Part shown: positions 16,589-46,830 of the stretch, piece after piece
Numbering within the stretch: position 1 is the first letter of the stretch
How the letters are laid out: each line of letters begins with the position of its first letter
From: Paenibacillus sp. FSL H8-0079
GTDB taxonomy: Bacteria > Bacillota > Bacilli > Paenibacillales > Paenibacillaceae
Reading direction: 5' to 3'
Length of the DNA stretch: 64,000 nt
Assembly (NCBI RefSeq): GCF_037991315.1
Contig: NZ_CP150300.1
Span: 4,774,001 to 4,838,000 of the forward strand
Notes under the pieces: generated by a model
The model's database searches: none
Told to the model about the DNA's origin: nothing
What the model saw: the letters and a program-made list of their open reading frames with translations, nothing else
Position numbers and translations under genes: made by a program

Positions 16589-18199
16589 CTATCGGCCTTT
16601 ATCCACCAACTTAACGATCTCGTCCAATTGCCCATCGACCGCCAGCGGTGTGTACATCCACCATTTGTCGTAGGATACCTTATGCACGTTTCTATTACGA
16701 ACAGCATTCAAGCTCCTCCATACTTCCGAACGACACAGTTTGCGAAAGGCGGCTTCGGCACGCGGGTTTTGCCCATTGACCATGATAAACAATCGATCCG
16801 CGTCATAATGACAGAGTTCTTCGAATGGAAGCTTTTCCGAGAACGCGTTATGACCATTATAGTCATTAATGAATTGCTGCACGAGCGGATGAGGTCTCAA
16901 TTGAAGAGAGCGGTACAGCACATGCCCCATGTTCCGGTCACCTGCCACGCGAAAGCCTGTATCATCGATCACCAGTGCCGCATACGTATCTTGCAATCCG
17001 ATAGCGGCACAGAGTCGCTCCTTTGTCTGGGCAACCTTAAGCTGATGTTGTTCCATCCAATCTCTGCTTCTCTTACGTTTGTTAACAACAGCAGATACGC
17101 TGTCTAACTGTTGGTATACGTCCTGAGATTGCCAGGGGATGCGTACCACTTCGGCGATCGTGGAAAATTGTTCGTATTCCCCAGTCGTCATATGCTCATA
17201 TCCCAAAATGAGATCAGGCTCCATTTCGCGAATCGCCTCAAGATCGTATGGTGCCCACACAAACGGTTTCATCTCAGGCAAATACGGGCGAACGTACTCG
17301 TTGCGGAATAAATGATAATCCGGTGCTCCGATCGGTGTCATGCCAAGTGCAAGCAAATGGGAGGTGAACAGCAGACCGATAACACGCGGCTCATGTTTCT
17401 TGACATAGACGCTTGGAGACACGCCTTCTTGCTGTTTGAACCTGCGGCTGAAATAAAATTCGTCCTTGAATCCAACCTGTGTGGCAATAGAGTGCATGTC
17501 CCGGCTTGATGATCTCAGCAAACGTTTCGCATGGTCGACTCGCACACGATGCAAATAATCCATTGGGCTTGTTCCTGTTACCTGCCTGAAAATATGACTA
17601 TACTGCCTCGTGCCAACGCAGGCGATAGCAGCCAACTCGCCCACCTTCCAATTGTGCTGGTAATTTTCCTCCATATGAGTGATGGTCCGCAGCACAGCCT
17701 CCTTGGTACTCGACGGCTGATTCACACAAGCCTTGACCGCAAAGTGAAAAACCGCTTCTTGCAGTAAAATTTCCCGCCTAAAGCGGCTCATCCCCATATC
17801 GGTCGTCCGTAGCTCAGCAATTTGATCGAATAGTTCCATCAGATTGGCCAACGGCTGAATTGCAACCACTCGGTTTCCGATCATTGCCAATGGATGTTCC
17901 TCTGGTTCTCCTTGCCAGTCCGCATCAAACTCTAGCTTATGCGCATGCACGATATGTCCAGGCTGATGCTCCCACTCCAAGATCGTACCGGGGAGAATCA
18001 GAATACTGCTGCTTGGAACGATTGTAAGGCGTTGTCCGTCCACAACGGCAACGCCTTCTCCCTCATCAATGACCCATAGTTCATAATTGTCGGGTGCAAA
18101 CATCGTGTGTTCTATACCCGAATGAAACGTATATACATCAAGCCCAATCCAACGTAATCGTACGTTATCCATGGGCAAATCGAAGTTCTGCCACTCCAC
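16589..18199 (-). CDS. Btr-like AraC regulator with C-terminal siderophore-binding domain
   Basis: A 536-residue fusion. Residues about 1-150 are a cupin-like AraC N-terminal domain, 165-268 carry two AraC helix-turn-helix motifs (WKVGELAAIACVGTRQYSHIFRQ; MHSIATQVGFKDEFYFSRRFKQ), and 275-530 are a FecB/FeuA-type binding domain with no signal peptide, so it is cytosolic. This is the architecture of B. subtilis Btr, which senses ferri-bacillibactin. Its binding domain matches the lipoprotein encoded just upstream: GFRVAGDRNMGHVL versus SFQVAGTRNMGFVL, and DKWWMYT versus DKWWSYT. The start is GTG with AAAGGTG 6-7 nt upstream. A Fur-like box lies at 18221-18235. It is predicted to induce the neighbouring receptor. 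Confidence 0.9.
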   Translation of the reverse strand: MEWQNFDLPMDNVRLRWIGLDVYTFHSGIEHTMFAPDNYELWVIDEGEGVAVVDGQRLTIVPSSSILILPGTILEWEHQPGHIVHAHKLEFDADWQGEPEEHPLAMIGNRVVAIQPLANLMELFDQIAELRTTDMGMSRFRREILLQEAVFHFAVKACVNQPSSTKEAVLRTITHMEENYQHNWKVGELAAIACVGTRQYSHIFRQVTGTSPMDYLHRVRVDHAKRLLRSSSRDMHSIATQVGFKDEFYFSRRFKQQEGVSPSVYVKKHEPRVIGLLFTSHLLALGMTPIGAPDYHLFRNEYVRPYLPEMKPFVWAPYDLEAIREMEPDLILGYEHMTTGEYEQFSTIAEVVRIPWQSQDVYQQLDSVSAVVNKRKRSRDWMEQHQLKVAQTKERLCAAIGLQDTYAALVIDDTGFRVAGDRNMGHVLYRSLQLRPHPLVQQFINDYNGHNAFSEKLPFEELCHYDADRLFIMVNGQNPRAEAAFRKLCRSEVWRSLNAVRNRNVHKVSYDKWWMYTPLAVDGQLDEIVKLVDKGR

Positions 18200-18312: not shown

Positions 18313-19347
18313 TTATTGATTATGTTGTTTGAACAATTCCACGGCTTCATCCAGCAAAGCATCCGTGGAGAATAATGTGTAAGACCACCATTTGTCATGT
18401 GGCACAATGAAGACGTTGCCGTTTTTGACCGCAGGGAGGTTTTTCCACAGGCTCGATTCCTGCATTTTTTCATAAAATTCCGTCGAACCCGGTTGGGTAT
18501 CATTGACCTTAATGATCAAATAATCCGCGGTAAGCTCCGGCAATTTCTCCAGTGACTGCGGCTCCGTGTACACGACGAATCCATCGCTTTTATCAACCTC
18601 TTCCTGAACCCATGGCATGCGCTTTAATCCAAGCAGATCGTGCAATACGAACCCCATGTTTCGGGTGCCTGCGACTTGGAATGAATCCTTGAAGATTTCT
18701 ACAGCCGCTACTGTCTCGTCTGCTCCAACAAGATTGCTCATTTCAGCTTTGCGTTCTAATACTTTGGTTTCATGTTTCGTGATCCATTCTTCTGCTTCCG
18801 CTTTTTTACCCACGATATCGCCAATATATCTCAGTTGATCGTATAGATTGTCTTCCCATGGATAGATAACCGTCGGAGCGATTTTCTCCAGTTGCTCGAT
18901 TATATCCGCTTCGACAAAGGAAGAAGCGATAATTAGATCAGGCTGAAGTGATGCCACTGCTTCCATATTAGGTGGATAGTCTCCGGCGATTTCAACTTCG
19001 CTGGCAGCATTTTTCAGATAATAATCCTGTTCGATTTCATATTGAAGTCCGCCTACAGGCGTAATGCCCAGAGCCAATAGTTGTGTTGTTGCACTAATAG
19101 AAAAAATGCGCTGCGGTGTCACGGGAATCTCTTTTGTTCCAGTAGGATCCGTGAAAGATTTCGTTTGTGAAGCGTTGGCGGATGCCGTCTCTTCCTGACT
19201 CGCAGTTCCTTCGCCCGTTGATGGCGAAGCCGTCTGACTTCCGTTGGACGAACCGCTATCGGCCTGTGTGCTACATCCCGCCATAATAAAGACCATCAGT
19301 AATATCATTGCTGCAGACATCATGCTATACGTACCTCTTCGTTTCAT
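18313..19347 (-). CDS. Siderophore-binding ABC transporter lipoprotein
   Basis: A 344-residue substrate-binding lipoprotein. The signal peptide ends in lipobox MAGC (Cys25), followed by a Ser/Thr-rich linker (about 26-65) and a FecB/TroA-like two-lobed domain (about 70-340) joined by a long helix. The typical first strand block (QRIFSISATTQLLALGITPVGG) and the central LQPDLIIAS are present. It captures a ferric siderophore outside the membrane for an ABC importer not encoded in this window. Its ligand-site blocks match those of the AraC fusion encoded downstream, implying the same siderophore. A Fur-like box is at 19382-19396. Confidence 0.9.
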   Translation of the reverse strand: MKRRGTYSMMSAAMILLMVFIMAGCSTQADSGSSNGSQTASPSTGEGTASQEETASANASQTKSFTDPTGTKEIPVTPQRIFSISATTQLLALGITPVGGLQYEIEQDYYLKNAASEVEIAGDYPPNMEAVASLQPDLIIASSFVEADIIEQLEKIAPTVIYPWEDNLYDQLRYIGDIVGKKAEAEEWITKHETKVLERKAEMSNLVGADETVAAVEIFKDSFQVAGTRNMGFVLHDLLGLKRMPWVQEEVDKSDGFVVYTEPQSLEKLPELTADYLIIKVNDTQPGSTEFYEKMQESSLWKNLPAVKNGNVFIVPHDKWWSYTLFSTDALLDEAVELFKQHNQ

Positions 19348-19381: not shown

Positions 19382-19396
19382 TGAGAATCAATATCA
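19382..19396. promoter_or_regulatory. Fur-box-like operator before the 18313 lipoprotein
   Basis: TGAGAATCAATATCA matches 12 of the 14 specified positions of the 7-1-7 Fur consensus, 35 nt before the ATG. Confidence 0.65.
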
Positions 19397-19640
19397 CTTA
19401 GAATAGAATACCGGACAGTCCTCTACTTTGCACATGGAGAATTCGGCGATTTTCTTTAGATCATTGAGAGGTCATGACATCAAACATTTTTCGTCTTTAT
19501 ACTCCATAGTTATGAGAAGAATCCGGTGCTACCGAGGAAACGTTTTGGAAAGTGACAAAAAGCCACTAATATTATTATATAATAACCTCACCACATAAAA
19601 GGCTGGCTTCAACAGCTCATGGAAGGAAGACAACTCTCTA

Positions 19641-21602
19641 TTGAAAGCAACCTTGAATGTACAAGATCACATACTCATCTGGAATTGTGCATCGCTCAAA
19701 ATCATGGATGTACGACATATTGTCATACAATCCGACGAGCGCGTACGTCCTTACCTGTTCCCTGCCAGCGCCTTTCTGTACGTAACGCATGGCAGTGCAA
19801 CCGTGATTTTAGACGGAAATGAGCATGCTACCAAACCATTTTATATGCTTCATGGGGGCAAAAACACCCGTCTGGACATCATGCCAACGGACGAATCCTT
19901 TCATTATTACCTAATTTTCTATAAAGCCTCCTTCCCGCTACCTGGCAAGCAGCATACACTTCAACAACCGGATCAACCATTGCCATTCCACCTCCAGTAC
20001 GGTTTTATTCCATACCATCCTGCCATCCTCTACGAAATCGCTGAGCGTATGCTGTGCGAATGGAATAGACCGGGACGCTTGGAGCGGCTCCATACCAAAA
20101 CACTATTCTATCAATTTGTATATGAATTGCTCAGGCAAATGGATCAACAGCAGGTCAGCATTGTTAGACCTAACCTTGCATCTCAGCTTATTCGCTATAT
20201 GCAGGAGCACTACGCCCAGCCGCTGACGCGGGAAACACTCGCGCATACATTCCATTACAGCGTCCCTTATCTGTCCAAGTACTTCCGACGTGAAACTGGC
20301 GCAAGTATAATCGATTACTTAATCGGTATTAGGATGAACAAAGCAGGAACGCTGCTGCAAAAGACCGAGTTATCTCTGCAAGAGGTCGCTGCAAGCGTTG
20401 GATATGGTGATGTATCCTATTTTATAAGAATGTTCAAAAAGCATACGGGAGTCACACCAAAGCAATTCAAGGATGAGTCCGGACAAGTGGCGAGAGGTTC
20501 TTATCGTCCTATTCTTAGGCTTCGATCATCCATTGCTCCGCGTAAACTCCGTCGTTATATTGATATCAGAGATGATAATCATTATCAACATAGCGAAAAA
20601 GGAGATTTACGGATGTATAGAAGCAAACTACCTGTAGGAATTACCCTGCTGTTGTGCCTAACTCTATTGGTTAGCGCATGTTCCAGACCAGCAAACACGA
20701 ATGGAAGCACTGGCAGTACGCAGAGTCCAACTGTAGGTGCAGAGAGTAATATCAGTAACACAACAACCGGCAGCTCGGAGATGGTAACCTATTCTGCGGT
20801 TAACGGTGAAGTACAAATCCCAAAAAAACCTCAAAGGGTCGTAATGGTGGCAGGAGCCTTTACCGGTCATTTGCTAGCGCTGGGCCTTAAGCCTGTTGGA
20901 ACTGGTGATGAGTCCTTTAACAGTTATACAGAAGGAAAGCTGGATGACGTTGTCAACATCGGTAACGATGTACCCTACGAGAAAATCATGGAGTTGCAGC
21001 CGGATTTAATTGTCGTTTGGAATGACCCTGAAACGATCGAAAAGCTGTCCAAAATTGCGCCGACCGTCTCTGTTGAATATGGAGTACCTCTGCGGGAGCA
21101 ATTGATGGATTTTGGCAAGATGACTGGTAGAGAAGAGCAAGCGAAGGCCTGGATCGCAGAGTGGGATGCTAAAATCGCTGAATATAAACCACTCGTGGAG
21201 CAAGCGGTAGGTGATCGCACGGTTTCGATTTTTGATACGGGAAGTGCCAAAGAATTTTATGCCTACGGGAGCTTTGGTAGAGGTGGAGATATTATTTATG
21301 GCGAGTTTGGCCTGAAGGCACCGCCGATCATTCAGAAGGAAGCCATCGATAGCGGCAAAGGTTGGGCCAAGTTATCACTTGAATTGTTACCACAATATGC
21401 AGGAGATTATATCTTTATTAGTGGATGGACAGGTGATGAGAGTCGGGATTCCGTTTTTGAAGGTCCGATCTGGGATAACCTCCCTGCTGTCCAGAATAAT
21501 CACGTTTATCGCGAGAACAGCCGTGGCTTCGTGTTTAGTGACCCGATTTCGTTGGAAGCCCAACTTAAATTTGTCGTAGACAGCCTAACCACAACAGAGT
21601 GA
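19641..21602 (+). CDS. AraC regulator continuous in frame with a siderophore-binding lipoprotein
   Basis: A single 653-codon frame. Residues about 20-110 are a cupin-like domain, 180-278 an AraC DNA-binding domain (ETLAHTFHYSVPYLSKYFRR; LQEVAASVGYGDVSYFIRMF), 285-324 a basic linker, 325-347 a full lipoprotein signal peptide with lipobox VSAC (Cys347), and 375-653 a FecB-like binding domain. If translated throughout, the AraC part would be cytosolic and the binding domain outside, joined by one membrane helix. A perfect Fur box, a binding site and an ATG lie inside (see the nested CDS). The start used is TTG 19641 behind GGAAGGA; a TTG at 19653 is the alternative. No stop codon or frameshift separates the halves. 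A paralogue at 26228-28180 has the same layout. Confidence 0.8.
   Translation: MKATLNVQDHILIWNCASLKIMDVRHIVIQSDERVRPYLFPASAFLYVTHGSATVILDGNEHATKPFYMLHGGKNTRLDIMPTDESFHYYLIFYKASFPLPGKQHTLQQPDQPLPFHLQYGFIPYHPAILYEIAERMLCEWNRPGRLERLHTKTLFYQFVYELLRQMDQQQVSIVRPNLASQLIRYMQEHYAQPLTRETLAHTFHYSVPYLSKYFRRETGASIIDYLIGIRMNKAGTLLQKTELSLQEVAASVGYGDVSYFIRMFKKHTGVTPKQFKDESGQVARGSYRPILRLRSSIAPRKLRRYIDIRDDNHYQHSEKGDLRMYRSKLPVGITLLLCLTLLVSACSRPANTNGSTGSTQSPTVGAESNISNTTTGSSEMVTYSAVNGEVQIPKKPQRVVMVAGAFTGHLLALGLKPVGTGDESFNSYTEGKLDDVVNIGNDVPYEKIMELQPDLIVVWNDPETIEKLSKIAPTVSVEYGVPLREQLMDFGKMTGREEQAKAWIAEWDAKIAEYKPLVEQAVGDRTVSIFDTGSAKEFYAYGSFGRGGDIIYGEFGLKAPPIIQKEAIDSGKGWAKLSLELLPQYAGDYIFISGWTGDESRDSVFEGPIWDNLPAVQNNHVYRENSRGFVFSDPISLEAQLKFVVDSLTTTE
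20573..20587. promoter_or_regulatory. Perfect Fur box inside the AraC/lipoprotein frame
   Basis: TGATAATCATTATCA is a full 7-1-7 Fur box, translated as part of DDNHYQH in the long frame. It ends 25 nt before the internal ATG of the lipoprotein, where an operator for an internal promoter would be expected. Confidence 0.8.
20613..21602 (+). CDS. Nested siderophore-binding lipoprotein from an internal start
   Basis: Same frame as the 19641 gene, from Met325 onward: 329 residues. AAAAAGGAG lies 8 nt before this ATG, a stronger site than that of the long frame. Directly at the new N-terminus are MYRSK, a hydrophobic stretch and lipobox VSAC with Cys23 in this numbering, which is exactly how a free substrate-binding lipoprotein should begin. 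A perfect Fur box lies 25 nt upstream. It would deliver ferric siderophore to an ABC importer encoded elsewhere. Whether it is made alone, as part of the long protein, or both cannot be decided from sequence. Confidence 0.65.
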   Translation: MYRSKLPVGITLLLCLTLLVSACSRPANTNGSTGSTQSPTVGAESNISNTTTGSSEMVTYSAVNGEVQIPKKPQRVVMVAGAFTGHLLALGLKPVGTGDESFNSYTEGKLDDVVNIGNDVPYEKIMELQPDLIVVWNDPETIEKLSKIAPTVSVEYGVPLREQLMDFGKMTGREEQAKAWIAEWDAKIAEYKPLVEQAVGDRTVSIFDTGSAKEFYAYGSFGRGGDIIYGEFGLKAPPIIQKEAIDSGKGWAKLSLELLPQYAGDYIFISGWTGDESRDSVFEGPIWDNLPAVQNNHVYRENSRGFVFSDPISLEAQLKFVVDSLTTTE

Positions 21603-21628
21603 AATTCAGTAAACCACGTTATGTACGA

Positions 21629-21653
21629 GGCGAGGAGCAATCCTCGCCTTTTT
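21629..21653 (+). terminator. Strong terminator after the AraC/lipoprotein gene
   Basis: GGCGAGGA/TCCTCGCC is a perfect 8-bp stem with loop GCAA and a TTTTT tail. Confidence 0.85.
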
Positions 21654-21747: not shown

Positions 21748-23307
<1,560 letters not shown>

Positions 23308-26227: not shown

Positions 26228-27223
26228 TTATTCAGCAATCATCTTAGGAAACTCATCCAGCAGCATGTCGCTCGTCAGCATATCTTCATAATTCCATTTG
26301 GACTCGATGAAAGTGACTTTTCCGCTTTGCACAGCGGGGAGTTTTTTCCAAAGTGGCGTTTCCAGCAGTTCCTTAAAGGATGATTCGGCTTCATCATTCT
26401 CAGGGTACAATACGAACAGATGGTCACCTACAAGCATCTCATGCATCAGCTCAGGCGAGATCTCAATGAACGGGGAGCCTGCGGCTGGCTCAATGCCTTT
26501 CACCTTCTCAGACATCTGGTAGCCTTGCGGCTGGTACAACAGTTCAGGCACGCCGCCTGTTTTCATCAGATACATCGTCCGATCCCAATAATACATCAGC
26601 ACCACAGCCGTTTCGCCTTCAGCGACTTGACCTTGATCCCGTACCTCGCTCCACATCTTCTCTGCCTTGACATTATAATCAGCCAGCAATTGCTTGGCCT
26701 CATCCTGTCTGCCTACAATCTCCCCGATCACCGGAAGACGTTCGTTCAATGGTAAATTCTGATCAAAGACAACGGTCGGTGATATTTTGGATATTTCATC
26801 ATACTGCTTATCCAGTACATAACCCAGCATGGTCAGATCTGGTTCCAGGGACAGGATTTTCTCAAAACTCGTGGGAAAACCGATATCCTCTGCGGGCGTG
26901 ATCTCTTTATCCTCATATGCCGAATTGGTAATAAATCTACGGTCAACCCCAACAGGCTGTACACCCAGCGCAAGCAGATCTCCAATCGAATTGCCCTGAA
27001 GCACAACACGTTGCGGCTTCTCCGGTATACTGACTTCATGTCCCTGATTGTCCGTGTATAGCCTTTCGGAAGGCGTTGTGCTGGCCTGTTGACTCGTTTG
27101 CGTTTCTACAGTTGATGTAGATGTTGTGCTTGTATTCCCCCCGGCAGGTGCACAAGCGCTGACCATAATGGTCAGGCATAACAGCATGACAGCCCCCAAT
27201 GATACTTTAGTATTTCTGTACAT
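26228..27223 (-). CDS. Nested siderophore-binding lipoprotein from an internal start
   Basis: The 331-residue C-terminal part of the 28180 gene, starting at an internal ATG. It opens with MYRNTK, a hydrophobic stretch LGAVMLLCLTIMV and lipobox VSAC, then a Thr/Ser-rich linker and a FecB-like binding domain (RVVLQGNSIGDLLALGVQPVG; LSLEPDLTMLG). GGAGAGG lies 12 nt or a little more before the ATG, weaker than in the 20613 copy. A perfect Fur box lies 25 nt upstream. It probably serves as the receptor subunit for a siderophore ABC importer if translated separately. Confidence 0.6.
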   Translation of the reverse strand: MYRNTKVSLGAVMLLCLTIMVSACAPAGGNTSTTSTSTVETQTSQQASTTPSERLYTDNQGHEVSIPEKPQRVVLQGNSIGDLLALGVQPVGVDRRFITNSAYEDKEITPAEDIGFPTSFEKILSLEPDLTMLGYVLDKQYDEISKISPTVVFDQNLPLNERLPVIGEIVGRQDEAKQLLADYNVKAEKMWSEVRDQGQVAEGETAVVLMYYWDRTMYLMKTGGVPELLYQPQGYQMSEKVKGIEPAAGSPFIEISPELMHEMLVGDHLFVLYPENDEAESSFKELLETPLWKKLPAVQSGKVTFIESKWNYEDMLTSDMLLDEFPKMIAE

Positions 27224-28180
27224 CGATAAATCGTTCCTCTCCATATGTTGATAATGATTATCATATTCATTACCAATATAACCTTGTCCTCTGCGTTCTG
27301 CATTAGACAATCTAAGCCTGGTTATAGGACGATCCATTCTTTTGGTTTGATCACGAGCTTCTGACCTATAATTACCGGGTGTCACTCCCACCGTCTTTTT
27401 GAAAATGCGGATAAAGTAAGATAAATCCGTGTAACCCACGCCCGACGCCACTTCCTGTAAAGAAGCCTCTGTTTGTTCCAGCAATTCACAGGCCATTTCC
27501 ATTCGAACTTGAATCAGATAATCAATGAGACTATTTCCGGTCTTATTTTTGAACTGTTTTGCCACATAAGGAGCACTATAATTAAGCCGCTCAGCAACCG
27601 TGGATAACGTAATTGATTCCCTGTAATGTTCGCGGATGTATTGAGTAGCTTGCTCAACTAGATCAGGTTTAACATTAGCTTCCGTATGTATCTTCCATTG
27701 TCTCTCAACTTCGTACGCAAACTGATACAACTGCGATTTCACCTGCAATCGTTCGAGTGAGTTAGGCTTCAGCCATATGTGAAGCATTTTCTTCAGTTGA
27801 AGCAGTAATTCAACCGGATCATTGGGAGCAAAAGCATATTGCCTTTGAAATGGATTGCTGCTCTTATATTGTCTCTGGACAGATGGTAGAGCCGTGTTGG
27901 AGAGAGAAGTTTTATATAACACCAGATAGTATTCCATTCTCTCTCTAACCGGACCGATGTCCAGACGACCTCCCTTCCCACTATGGATGATATAAAAACG
28001 TTCAACATCATGCGTCACACCATCGAGCCGAAAACAAGCGGTACCACGAGCAATATATAGATATCCAGATGTAGGAAAACGATAGGAACTCAACGCTTCC
28101 CCTGGATTCAGAAACTTATAGCGAATATCCATGAGTTGAATATTGGTATAATCCCATAACATTAAATCATCGTCGTTCAA
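26228..28180 (-). CDS. AraC regulator continuous in frame with a siderophore-binding lipoprotein
   Basis: A 650-codon frame from TTG 28180. It has a cupin-like domain (about 5-100), an AraC DNA-binding domain (about 170-270: TVAERLNYSAPYVAKQFKN; LQEVASGVGYTDLSYFIRIF), a basic linker, an internal lipoprotein signal peptide with lipobox VSAC, and a FecB-like domain to the end. It is a paralogue of the 19641 gene over the whole length, linker included. The TTG is chosen because AAAGGGGG lies 7 nt upstream. The frame runs on to an ATG at 28228, but those codons overlap a Fur box and have no binding site. No stop or frameshift separates the two halves. Confidence 0.8.
   Translation of the reverse strand: MNDDDLMLWDYTNIQLMDIRYKFLNPGEALSSYRFPTSGYLYIARGTACFRLDGVTHDVERFYIIHSGKGGRLDIGPVRERMEYYLVLYKTSLSNTALPSVQRQYKSSNPFQRQYAFAPNDPVELLLQLKKMLHIWLKPNSLERLQVKSQLYQFAYEVERQWKIHTEANVKPDLVEQATQYIREHYRESITLSTVAERLNYSAPYVAKQFKNKTGNSLIDYLIQVRMEMACELLEQTEASLQEVASGVGYTDLSYFIRIFKKTVGVTPGNYRSEARDQTKRMDRPITRLRLSNAERRGQGYIGNEYDNHYQHMERNDLSMYRNTKVSLGAVMLLCLTIMVSACAPAGGNTSTTSTSTVETQTSQQASTTPSERLYTDNQGHEVSIPEKPQRVVLQGNSIGDLLALGVQPVGVDRRFITNSAYEDKEITPAEDIGFPTSFEKILSLEPDLTMLGYVLDKQYDEISKISPTVVFDQNLPLNERLPVIGEIVGRQDEAKQLLADYNVKAEKMWSEVRDQGQVAEGETAVVLMYYWDRTMYLMKTGGVPELLYQPQGYQMSEKVKGIEPAAGSPFIEISPELMHEMLVGDHLFVLYPENDEAESSFKELLETPLWKKLPAVQSGKVTFIESKWNYEDMLTSDMLLDEFPKMIAE
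27249..27263. promoter_or_regulatory. Perfect Fur box inside the second AraC/lipoprotein frame
   Basis: TGATAATGATTATCA as written on the plus strand is a full 7-1-7 site. In the minus-strand frame it is read as YDNHYQH, the same peptide core as in the paralogue. Confidence 0.8.
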
Positions 28181-28212
28181 AATAATGCCCCCTTTCCTAT
28201 GGGAAGTATAAT

Positions 28213-28227
28213 TGATAACAATTATCA
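28213..28227. promoter_or_regulatory. Fur box before the second AraC/lipoprotein gene
   Basis: TGATAACAATTATCA matches 13 of 14 specified positions and lies 33 nt before the TTG start at 28180. Confidence 0.75.
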
Positions 28228-28415
28228 TTTACAACAAATTTTTAACTGCTACATCCTTCGTTTAGTTCAAAACGAAAGATTTTCGATTTCATAGATATAT
28301 CGACATTCAACATATCTTCATTCAAGCTTCATTCTTTCCCTTCACTTCTATAGTACGATTATGTAGACTTTCCAATGAAGTACAGACACTGCAATTCCAC
28401 AAGGAGGATTTCCAT

Positions 28416-37955: not shown

Positions 37956-37970
37956 TGATAACAATTATCA
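37956..37970. promoter_or_regulatory. Fur box before the receptor/permease operon
   Basis: TGATAACAATTATCA, followed directly by a further half-site-like TTATCA. Confidence 0.8.
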
Positions 37971-40538: not shown

Positions 40539-42392
40539 TCAACGTGCCATAATCCGCTCTGCCATTTCCTCGGCTTGCAGCACGGCAGACAACGGGTCGG
40601 AGAGAAAATATCTATTCCAATCAAGGTTAATAATCCGGCAATGATCTGTCTCGATGGATTTCTGCCATGGTTTGCCTGAAGCTTGATCAACCCCAGGTCT
40701 TGGACCATTATCCAACACCAACAGGTAGTCCTCCACGTACCCTCCTACCGCACTCCGCGCAATATCTAGGTACTCCAAGCCCGGCTCCAACAGTTCCTGA
40801 CGAACCTTGCCTGCCGGCTTCAAGTTCAGTAAGCCATAGGCTGCCTTCCCCCCACGAGTTCCCGTATTTCCCACAAGAGTAATATGTTCTCCCCAATTCG
40901 GATCAATAACAGTAAATGTCTTCTCTGCGGAGACTTTGCCTGTGATCGTTTGCTGCAAAGTATGTACTCTCCGCATGTATTCCTTAATCCATGTTTCGGC
41001 CTCTGTCCGGCGATTCAGAATACGTCCCATCTCTCGAATCTCCTCCGCGACAGAGCTGTAACCATTCCCTCCATAGACCACCGTAGGTGCAATCCGGGCA
41101 TAGGAAGCGTAGGCGGCAGGATTCCAGGTGATGATCAGATCTGGCTCCAGTTCAAGCACTCTTTCAATGGAGATAAAATTATGATTCCCGATATCCTGTA
41201 CTTGGTCATAGATATAAGGCTCCAGCATTTGGTTGCTTTCAATGAGTGAATGTGGCGCTCCAAGAGGTGTTACCCCCAATGCTAGCACTTCTCCCAAATT
41301 CCAGTCCACAACAACACGGCTAGGCTTGTTCGGTACCGTAATCTCGCCCATGCTTGTGGCAAGCAACCGAGTTCTGGCTCTTGGCAACGCGGCCGCCGAG
41401 GATTTCCACACTTGGACTCCTTTCAAATCTATAGTCTCCTGTTCTGGCTGGGGCTGGTCAGCTTCAACTATGGATACTGTTCTTACGCTCCAGCCGGAAT
41501 AGTGACTTTCCAAAGCGGCGTGTGGTTGGAAAGTTTTCGGGGCTACATCTGGAATACTGCTCTCTCGACGCTTTCTGTAGAACTCCGGAGAAACCCCATA
41601 ATGTTTTTTGAAATAACGACTTAGTGTATAGCCATTCTCATAGCCTACTCTTTCCGCGATTTCCTGTAAGGTCCCTTTCGTACTCACCAGTAGTTTCAGC
41701 GCCTGTTCCATCCGAATCTGTAACAGCACACGACTGGGACTCGTGTTCAATTGAAGCTGAAACAATTGGTTCAGATACCTCGGACTGCAATCCAGCATTT
41801 CAGCAACCTGTTCCATCTTGAGTGATTCCGCGTAGTGACGTTTCAGATAACGGACTGCCTGATCTACCCGATCCAGCTTCGTACGGTTCTTCCTCTTCTC
41901 TTGCATTTGTTTCAGCATCTCGGCGAGCCATTGATAGAACAACGCCTTGGTTTGAATCCGGCCTGCTGACTGTAGTTCATTCCACTGTCTGTATATCAAC
42001 TGCATAATTTCAATTAATGGCAAAGGGTACGTTGGTTCAAAACCAAAACTGACTTGCAGAGACTCCGCCCCAGTATATGTTTGGGATTCTTCAGCATTTG
42101 GCTTCTCTGACTCTGGTGACGAATACGACAACACATGTAATTCCATTCGCTTCTTAGCCAGACAATCCAGACGCATTCCTTTGGAGGCATGCAGAATATA
42201 TGTCCCTTTAATGTGATGCATCGCCTGACCGAGCCAGATCTTCCCCTTGCCATTCGTAATTAATAAAAAAGCATTCGAGGGAAGCGTCCACGTATTAGGA
42301 TCTTCACTGATGTTAATGGTAATGATTCGAATATCCAGTAATCGGATCGTTATATGCTCCCATAATGCGCCGTATTCTTCTATGTTCATCAT
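40539..42392 (-). CDS. Btr-like AraC regulator with C-terminal siderophore-binding domain
   Basis: A 617-residue fusion: cupin-like domain (about 20-105), AraC DNA-binding domain (about 185-285: MEQVAEMLDCSPRYLNQLFQ; LQEIAERVGYENGYTLSRYFK), a polar linker (about 290-340) with no hydrophobic stretch, and a FecB-like domain (about 345-615). The absence of a signal peptide makes it cytosolic. Its binding domain matches the divergent lipoprotein at 42590: ITVPNKPSRVVVDWNLGEVLALGVTPLG versus VTVPLNPERVVVDWNIGHVLAVGVTPVG when compared in blocks, and NTGTRGGKAAYGLL versus NSANRGGRAAYELL. Start is ATG 42392 or 42389 behind AAAGG. A Fur-like box is at 42449-42463. Confidence 0.9.
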   Translation of the reverse strand: MMNIEEYGALWEHITIRLLDIRIITINISEDPNTWTLPSNAFLLITNGKGKIWLGQAMHHIKGTYILHASKGMRLDCLAKKRMELHVLSYSSPESEKPNAEESQTYTGAESLQVSFGFEPTYPLPLIEIMQLIYRQWNELQSAGRIQTKALFYQWLAEMLKQMQEKRKNRTKLDRVDQAVRYLKRHYAESLKMEQVAEMLDCSPRYLNQLFQLQLNTSPSRVLLQIRMEQALKLLVSTKGTLQEIAERVGYENGYTLSRYFKKHYGVSPEFYRKRRESSIPDVAPKTFQPHAALESHYSGWSVRTVSIVEADQPQPEQETIDLKGVQVWKSSAAALPRARTRLLATSMGEITVPNKPSRVVVDWNLGEVLALGVTPLGAPHSLIESNQMLEPYIYDQVQDIGNHNFISIERVLELEPDLIITWNPAAYASYARIAPTVVYGGNGYSSVAEEIREMGRILNRRTEAETWIKEYMRRVHTLQQTITGKVSAEKTFTVIDPNWGEHITLVGNTGTRGGKAAYGLLNLKPAGKVRQELLEPGLEYLDIARSAVGGYVEDYLLVLDNGPRPGVDQASGKPWQKSIETDHCRIINLDWNRYFLSDPLSAVLQAEEMAERIMAR

Positions 42393-42448
42393 CAAGGACC
42401 TTTCTTTATTTCCTCGTTACCACACCCAAAGCTTTGCCTCATCATATA

Positions 42449-42555: not shown

Positions 42556-42570
42556 TGAAAATCATTATCA
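42556..42570. promoter_or_regulatory. Fur box before the 42590 lipoprotein
   Basis: TGAAAATCATTATCA matches 13 of 14 specified positions, 19 nt before the ATG. With the box at 42449 the divergent region has two operators. Confidence 0.75.
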
Positions 42571-42589: not shown

Positions 42590-43564
42590 ATGTTGTTCAA
42601 GAAAGCTTGGTATCGAATGGCCCTGCCGGTTTTGCTGATCATGGCTGTATTCATTAGTGGTTGTACCCAAAAAGAGACGGTGGAATCCGTCACGACAGAA
42701 ACAGAAAACGCCGCACCACAGACAAGAACACTCTCAACGATGATGGGAGACGTCACCGTACCCCTTAACCCGGAGCGGGTTGTCGTTGACTGGAATATAG
42801 GACATGTTCTGGCTGTCGGCGTAACACCCGTTGGTGTGCCGGGTAGCCTGCTGGATTACGGAATGTTCCTGCGTGACAAACTTACAGATAGCGCAGATTT
42901 GGGTAACCACAGTGAGGTTTCGCTTGAGAAAATGGTAGAGCTGGAACCGGACCTGATTATCACATGGGACCAAGAGAAATTTCAGACCTATTCCAAAATC
43001 GCTCCGACTGTCGTATTCGTACCAGATCAGTATGATTCCATGGAAGCCGAAGTAACAGCCATGGGCGAGATTCTGAATCGTCCGACAGAGGCCATAGCGT
43101 GGAACGAATCATTTAAACAACGGATCGCAGCTGCTCAGGCCAAAATCAAAGATGTGATTCCGGACGGCGCCACCTTTACCGTTGCCGATTTTAACTTTTT
43201 GAAGAATCCCGCCATTATCGGCAACAGCGCCAATCGTGGCGGGAGAGCAGCCTATGAATTGCTAGGACTGACTCCAGCACCCAAGGTGAAGTCGGATCTT
43301 CTGGACCAAGATAAAGAAAACCTGGAAGCTAGCGCGGAGGTATTCGGAGAGTACGTGGGTGATTACCTGCTGATGATGGTTACAGAAGGCACGAAGGATC
43401 ACTCCCTGTTGCCGAACGTCTGGGACAATCTGCCTGCGGTGCAGAACAACCATATCTTCAAACTGGATATCCATAAATATTTCACCGCTGATCCCTACAC
43501 CTCCATTCTACAAGCCGAAGAGATCGCAGATCGACTCGCAAGTGGACAGACTGAGCTGAATTAG
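42590..43564 (+). CDS. Siderophore-binding ABC transporter lipoprotein
   Basis: A 324-residue lipoprotein with lipobox ISGC (Cys about 25), a short acidic linker and a FecB-like domain (about 45-320). AGAGGG lies 6 nt before the ATG. It is divergent from the AraC fusion at 40539, whose C-terminal domain is its closest relative in the window, so the two should recognise the same ferric siderophore. No permease or ATPase adjoins. Confidence 0.92.
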   Translation: MLFKKAWYRMALPVLLIMAVFISGCTQKETVESVTTETENAAPQTRTLSTMMGDVTVPLNPERVVVDWNIGHVLAVGVTPVGVPGSLLDYGMFLRDKLTDSADLGNHSEVSLEKMVELEPDLIITWDQEKFQTYSKIAPTVVFVPDQYDSMEAEVTAMGEILNRPTEAIAWNESFKQRIAAAQAKIKDVIPDGATFTVADFNFLKNPAIIGNSANRGGRAAYELLGLTPAPKVKSDLLDQDKENLEASAEVFGEYVGDYLLMMVTEGTKDHSLLPNVWDNLPAVQNNHIFKLDIHKYFTADPYTSILQAEEIADRLASGQTELN

Positions 43565-46809: not shown

Positions 46810-46830
46810 TGATAATGATAATTATTATCA
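46810..46830. promoter_or_regulatory. Extended overlapping Fur boxes
   Basis: A TGATAAT heptamer and an ATTATCA heptamer are separated by GATAATT, giving a 21-bp inverted-repeat region that can hold two overlapping Fur sites. Confidence 0.8.

Follow-up and report, generated by a model that had tools for sequence, protein, structure and literature searches.

In Btr (YbbB) of Bacillus, an AraC-type helix–turn–helix and a Peripla_BP_2 domain are joined in one chain in an iron–siderophore context, as they are in the long protein considered here. ToxR, TcpP, and CadC are membrane-bound one-component regulators, and the short form of cheA is an in-frame nested product made from an internal start. 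In the passages of PMC13293324 considered here, 229 multi-domain Peripla_BP_2 genes from siderophore clusters are reported to have HTH_18 as their partner domain in 98.7% of cases, and the Paenibacillus receptor-to-cluster ratio of 29.43 is read as xenosiderophore pirating; these passages mention neither signal peptides within such fusions nor internal Fur sites. The arrangement reported below was not found described in the accessible parts of the open-licence literature, subscription papers lying outside that scope. Our main reading, to which we give a probability of about 0.8, is that one frame makes two in-phase products, a long AraC–receptor sensor and a shorter lipoprotein for transport that is repressed by Fur, which would share a ligand-binding domain.

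The frame at 19641–21602 (+) of the window, i.e. the whole 64,000-nt stretch of Paenibacillus sp. FSL H8-0079 analysed here, has 653 codons from a TTG start and encodes an AraC part (residues 1–280), a linker, a lipoprotein signal peptide (SP, residues 325–347), and an FhuD-like siderophore-binding domain (residues ∼380–650). A domain search with the long-frame protein placed HTH_18 at residues 200–277 and Peripla_BP_2 at residues 400–624. By direct reading of the sequence, a Shine–Dalgarno (SD)-like GGAAGGAAG (19621–19629, +) stands ahead of the TTG, and the Fur-box scan found a site with two mismatches (19382–19396, +) in the shared intergenic region 5′ of the long form. Inside the frame lie a candidate promoter (20533–20561, +), with TTGCTC at 20533–20538 and TATATT at 20556–20561 separated by 17 nt; the internal Fur box TGATAATCATTATCA (20573–20587, +), which has no mismatches in the scan and encodes part of DDNHYQ; the internal SD AAAAAGGAG (20596–20604, +), identified by reading and family comparison; and the ATG of Met325, which would open the short form, a predicted Fur-controlled siderophore lipoprotein (20613–21602, +) with the lipobox VSAC and Cys347. 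The original prediction of a stop-free passage from the AraC domain into a lipoprotein signal peptide, with a perfect Fur box, an SD, and an ATG within the frame, was confirmed, and the case for it is stronger than first put. The short form has the signal peptide with its lipobox Cys, and domain search and fold comparison of the receptor half both recognized the class III binding-protein fold. Its gene sits inside the AraC frame and is not a separate gene with a promoter outside other coding sequence. A terminator-like hairpin immediately 3′ of the stop (21627–21650, +; terminator scan) suggests a monocistronic unit. Adjoining the long frame are a classical Btr-type regulator (16589–18199, −) beside a siderophore lipoprotein (18313–19347, −), and a collagen-like GXT repeat protein (21748–23307, −).

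Another gene built in the same way (gene 2), found from the ORF list and domain search, lies at 26228–28228 (−), with a likelier start at the TTG at 28180, which has an SD, than at the 28228 given by the ORF tool. Its protein is 38% identical to that of the first (gene 1), and it has a perfect internal Fur box (27249–27263, −) with an internal ATG at 27223, as well as a box with one mismatch 5′ of the entire gene (28213–28227, −; Fur-box scan). Over the window there are 21 Fur-box sites at ≤3 mismatches versus 6.0 expected from shuffles. Additional Fur-box-like sites with 0–1 mismatches lie at 37956–37970, 42556–42570, and 46816–46830, and the stretch holding them looks like an iron-uptake island. 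The window also has an SP-less AraC–SBP fusion (40539–42395, −) opposite a divergent lipoprotein (42590–43564, +), and the receptor domains of these two group with an SP fusion on the receptor tree.

The source genome, a single contig, contains 12 fusions with a signal peptide (L001–L010, L012, and L013); two of these, L003 and L005, form a tandem pair at G000:C1:4255588–4259688, each with its own internal Fur box. When gene 2 was the query, 45 of 60 genus genomes matched at E ≤1e-80, and when gene 1 was the query, 93 of 198 order genomes matched at E ≤1e-60, some rows being the lipoprotein half only. The phylum search gave matches in 8 of 398 genomes at E ≤1e-50, three of them via the lipoprotein half only, and a Lysinibacillus member used as query matched 42 of 398 class genomes at E ≤1e-70. 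Signal-peptide fusions are kept across several families of the class. The AraC part was also used alone, so that the receptor could not bias the outcome; 149 genomes were searched with at most 15 candidates scored per genome, and 141 of the 150 AraC-part matches listed lie in frames of at least 634 aa, with one (L218) having a stop inside AraC near residue 133. Nine of the 150 listed have shorter frames: five SP-less fusions of 581–598 aa (L235, L236, L311, L312, and L313), three interrupted copies of 349, 370, and 430 aa (L233, L234, and L219), and L314, a 549-aa frame with a lipobox, a box with one mismatch, and a short receptor part. The frame lengths from the search read through stops; L238 and L171 were flagged with a stop, yet from stop to stop their frames are open at 656 and 655 aa. 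The frame of L233 is broken within the signal peptide, L234 has a stop inside AraC, L044 is interrupted by a frameshift at about residue 394, and L045 has a frameshift in the linker (residues 307–309) just 5′ of the internal Fur box, its lipoprotein start being intact. A clean split, with a stop after AraC followed by the lipoprotein, was not found among the 150 AraC-part matches listed. The original prediction had named homologues that always keep the two parts in separate frames as evidence against it; the 141 long frames among the 150 matches listed show the opposite.

For the conservation analysis, 228 loci gave 153 fused frames, and 84 of these remained at <80% identity. Three were set aside as having no hydrophobic segment (mean hydropathy over 16 residues <1.8), leaving 81 SP fusions, among them L193 and L198, which have SVC replacing the standard lipobox and were assigned by hand. 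The 81 were gathered as fusions and filtered by their hydrophobic segment, and they are related, so that the following counts are not independent events. The AraC halves are ∼39% identical (median) among these non-redundant fusions. A Fur box lies within 180 nt 5′ of the lipobox Cys in 81/81, with 0, 1, 2, and 3 mismatches in 31, 37, 9, and 4 of them, while just 5 of 877 same-gene control windows reach ≤3 mismatches (none with 0–1, two with 2, and three with 3). A lipobox is found in 26 of 28 loci from other orders, and each of these 26 also has a box with 0–3 mismatches in the same phase (near-copies included). Because gene 2 repeats the layout and all 81 fusions carry the box, the internal box is not a chance occurrence, and what the original prediction presented as a lone oddity is instead the rule in a large family.

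Picked by a best-of score, the internal start codon is ATG in 72, GTG in 5, and TTG in 4 of the 81 fusions, and the box-to-start spacing is 25 nt in 60 of them. Against control windows picked by the same best-of choice, 77 of the 81 observed starts exceed the best 5% of the control in SD score, and the observed median is attained in 29 of 2719 matched control windows. A conserved internal SD and start, the marks of an in-frame nested gene, are therefore present, and on comparative grounds we consider the conserved nested gene to be real. Of the 81 fusions, 41 have a TTG at −40 and 36 a candidate −10 at −17, with internal promoter scores modestly above controls (8.5 versus 7.3 and 7.7). A strict consensus promoter scan made no call at 20533–20561, and the weak internal −35 and −10 are what might be expected of an activator-dependent promoter. 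Further upstream, a Fur-like site with ≤2 mismatches lies within 320 nt 5′ of the AraC part in 55 of 81, versus 0.2% of shuffles. A conserved DNA block 5′ of the internal −35 (20504–20527, +) recurs in gene 2 at 27309–27332 (−). In the whole genome its pattern has only these two sites at 0–1 mismatches plus one at 3, and a reversed-pattern control has two sites at ≤3 mismatches. Our guess is that this block is the AraC operator of the internal promoter.

Stand-alone lipoproteins and SP-less fusions serve as natural controls. The 33 stand-alone lipoprotein frames include the frameshifted fusion copies L233 and L045 and some near-copies of the window gene at 18313–19347. Without L233 and L045, 27 of 31 have a box with ≤3 mismatches, many at the same distance, and the 25 boxes with ≤2 mismatches are spread over the three phases as 12/7/6. 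An in-frame stop lies within 80 codons 5′ of the Cys in 31 of 32 stand-alone lipoproteins (29 of 30 without L233 and L045). No box at ≤3 mismatches was found before the receptor domain in two sets of complete SP-less fusions (0/18 and 0/3). Two lipobox-less relatives, L304 and L305, retain a site with two mismatches in the linker, which may be a remnant, and therefore the box and the signal peptide are not perfectly linked; nevertheless, the comparison indicates that signal peptide, Fur box, and internal start were nearly always gained and lost together. In L235, L236, L311–L313, and L305, the signal peptide is absent, the fusion is kept, and a separate lipoprotein of the same family lies directly downstream (L235, L236, L311, L312, and L313 are alike in size and layout, and L235 and L236 are the two of these five on the AraC tree). 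In L304 the lipobox Cys is replaced by His, and no lipoprotein receptor lies next to the fusion. The pairs of SP-less fusion and separate lipoprotein look like a sensor and a receptor, formerly one gene, that have been divided. These lineages argue that the long fusion is useful in itself and can sense without export, and suggest that it can also act as a cytosolic Btr-like sensor.

The receptor half retains E447 and E581, which, from the roles known in BtuF and FhuD, we take to be the two glutamates through which class III binding proteins dock to their permease. Both are invariant in 82 aligned proteins. Among 171 aligned SP-fusion rows (of 173 examined, without de-duplication), the two positions are E in 170 and 171, and among aligned stand-alone rows in 41/41 and 40/40. 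Of the 18 complete SP-less fusions, in contrast, only 4 have E at both positions; this count leaves out duplicate, truncated, and SVC-type rows, and distant rows are aligned with less certainty. Since the pair is kept in the SP family, the receptor half has been kept fit for transport. On an AraC tree of 118 rows, built without eight near-copies by a quick method with SH-aLRT support only and with long branches flagged, the SP label needs three changes, for which one gain and two losses would be the natural reading, and the AraC halves form nearly one clade. In contrast, on a receptor tree of 85 rows, comprising 37 SP fusions (39 picked of the 81), 32 stand-alone rows including the frameshifted copies L233 and L045, and 16 SP-less fusions, the SP fusions need 19 changes, at least eight of which are forced by well-supported branches. 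Furthermore, AraC and receptor identities are uncorrelated (rho 0.017; 5671 pairs from 107 fusions), as in example pairs with 36% AraC and 66% receptor identity or 55% and 20%. It therefore appears that the AraC–linker–signal front has been joined to different receptors repeatedly. Receptor-type residues and, on the trees, domain exchange are both observed. As a single coding sequence would supply both sensor and receptor, an exchange would alter both specificities at once, and use of one sequence in both roles would make the exchange self-consistent.

One rival explanation questions the frame itself, and another denies a second product. A sequencing error or missed stop that fused two genes has a negligible probability: a few copies are indeed frameshifted or carry a stop, but the 12 SP copies of the source genome lie in a single contig, and 141 of the 150 AraC-part matches listed (149 genomes searched) are in long frames. 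A lone artefact was rejected on the family of long-frame relatives across genus, order, and class genomes. Alternatively, there might be one product only, with DNHYQ kept for protein reasons and happening to spell a Fur box, and with SD and ATG incidental. In agreement with this, all 81 boxes share a single phase (the phase that would place TGA in frame is unused), the peptide D/E-N-x-Y-Q/H recurs, and resampling of synonymous codons for the same peptide does give a perfect box in 6% and a box with ≤1 mismatch in 26% of cases. However, the observed values are 38% and 84%, a signal that is collective, with only 16 of 81 genes passing 0.05 individually. At third positions of the box codons, T occurs 268 times and C six times (background 61–74% T), and GAT is changed to GAG or GAA 27 times and to the synonymous GAC never; synonymous C is thus nearly absent, while non-synonymous G and A are tolerated. 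We regard this third-base pattern as the cleanest sign of selection on the DNA. Across 38 disjoint pairs, dS is 1.06 in AraC, 0.47 in the linker, 0.044 in the box, 0.29 from box to signal peptide, 0.83 in the signal peptide, and 1.05 in the receptor. On the codon pattern and the dS of 0.044, constraint on the peptide alone was rejected as the cause of the box. In 51 pairs, the fraction of identical codons, with a background of 0.55, is 0.83 at nt −75 to −61, 0.73 at −60 to −46, 0.82 at −45 to −31, 0.67 at −30 to −16, 0.94–0.96 at −15 to +14, and 0.77–0.84 to about +59, and then 0.51. Codon conservation is therefore raised from ∼75 nt 5′ to 60 nt 3′ of the box, a length that would, in our judgement, suit a promoter preceded by an activator site. 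In this way the open frame and its embedded, conserved Fur box, SD, and start are accompanied by a promoter-length constraint on the DNA. Together with SD strength above matched controls, and with stand-alone lipoproteins that have the same box type at a similar distance in mixed phases, these data make a single product highly improbable, and this conservation at the DNA level strongly supports the proposal in the original prediction that the lipoprotein has its own Fur-controlled start and that two products are made.

The remaining alternatives concern what becomes of the long form. The original prediction, partly supported overall, also proposed that the signal helix anchors it in the membrane and that its sensor lies outside the cell, and we see an even chance of this. 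The hydrophobic segment and lipobox between AraC and receptor are conserved, yet a free lipoprotein requires both anyway. One would expect the leucine-rich segment of 16 residues, which follows K/R, to insert into the membrane from within a nascent chain (its mean hydropathy of >1.8 is also the filter that defined the 81), and AlphaFold predicts a helix at residues 332–345 flanked by disordered stretches. Both points weigh against two products in which the receptor domain of the long form is cytosolic and the internal signal peptide unengaged, a Btr-like sensor of imported ferric siderophore. This is a possible but rather unlikely arrangement, to which the Btr-type outgroup fusions without a signal peptide, and the retention of the fusion by lineages that lost theirs, lend some support. 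Still more doubtful is a precursor role, in which lipidation and a signal peptidase II cut at Cys347 would detach the receptor from an AraC part that stays behind on a membrane stub; a RasP-type intramembrane protease may then release this AraC part, so that receptor export is coupled to regulator release. The idea leans on an analogy with RasP and Eep and fits the lipobox residues A346–C347, invariant in 82 aligned proteins, but the free short form alone accounts for the lipobox. Moreover, SP-less descendants keep receptor and AraC joined, and so the joining itself seems to matter. Finally, we tentatively propose, at somewhat less than even odds, that the same domain is used twice, as the outside sensor of a transmembrane AraC protein and as a free lipoprotein from an embedded promoter controlled by Fur and AraC.

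In the two-product reading, the long form of ∼73 kDa would combine an AraC activator with a siderophore-binding domain as a ferric-siderophore sensor. Translation of the short form of ∼36 kDa would begin at Met325 on a transcript from a Fur-repressed promoter within the gene, and the product, an ordinary exported lipoprotein, would deliver ferric siderophore to a permease of the FecCD type whose genes lie elsewhere. At low iron, Fur would leave the upstream and internal sites, and the long form with bound siderophore would then activate the internal promoter, through the candidate operator at 20504–20527, to give more receptor. We infer that both in-frame products are very likely made and that the long form probably senses ligand; its action on the internal promoter is proposed. 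In the source annotations examined, the names given are AraC regulator or substrate-binding protein, and one of the two roles is therefore missed each time. The comparisons strongly favour a regulated gene that lies in phase within the frame of a bacterial regulator, and they offer a possible mechanism by which large Paenibacillus receptor sets could have matched sensing and uptake. If the long form does span the membrane as an AraC sensor, siderophores outside Gram-positive cells would be sensed by a one-component route that is new, and if the outside-sensor cassette is true, domain recombination would re-target sensing jointly with uptake and so account for both the domain shuffling and the large number of copies in a genome.

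Compared with known systems, the long form scores 78.7 bits against the Btr model NF049932 (NCBIfam equivalog), whose cut-off is 900. Btr has no signal peptide before its binding domain, whereas here a VSAC lipobox and a hydrophobic core are found at residues 325–347, and for this reason we classify the protein as a variant of the AraC–SBP fusions and not as a Btr member. The Btr-type and other SP-less fusions compared here also differ in having no internal Fur box (except for the possible remnants in L304 and L305) and often altered docking glutamates. Nearly all of the stand-alone FhuD-type lipoproteins compared have upstream stops, whereas the short form has its candidate promoter and start inside a regulator's frame. 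Like ToxR, TcpP, and CadC, the long form has a DNA-binding domain, one hydrophobic segment, and then a possible extracytoplasmic sensor, but it belongs to the AraC family, its insertion into the membrane is putative, and its segment comprises an entire lipoprotein signal peptide, with which a second product would also start. Like the short form of cheA, the short lipoprotein is a C-terminal product from an internal start, but it appears to have its own embedded iron-regulated promoter, and it would enter a different cell compartment.
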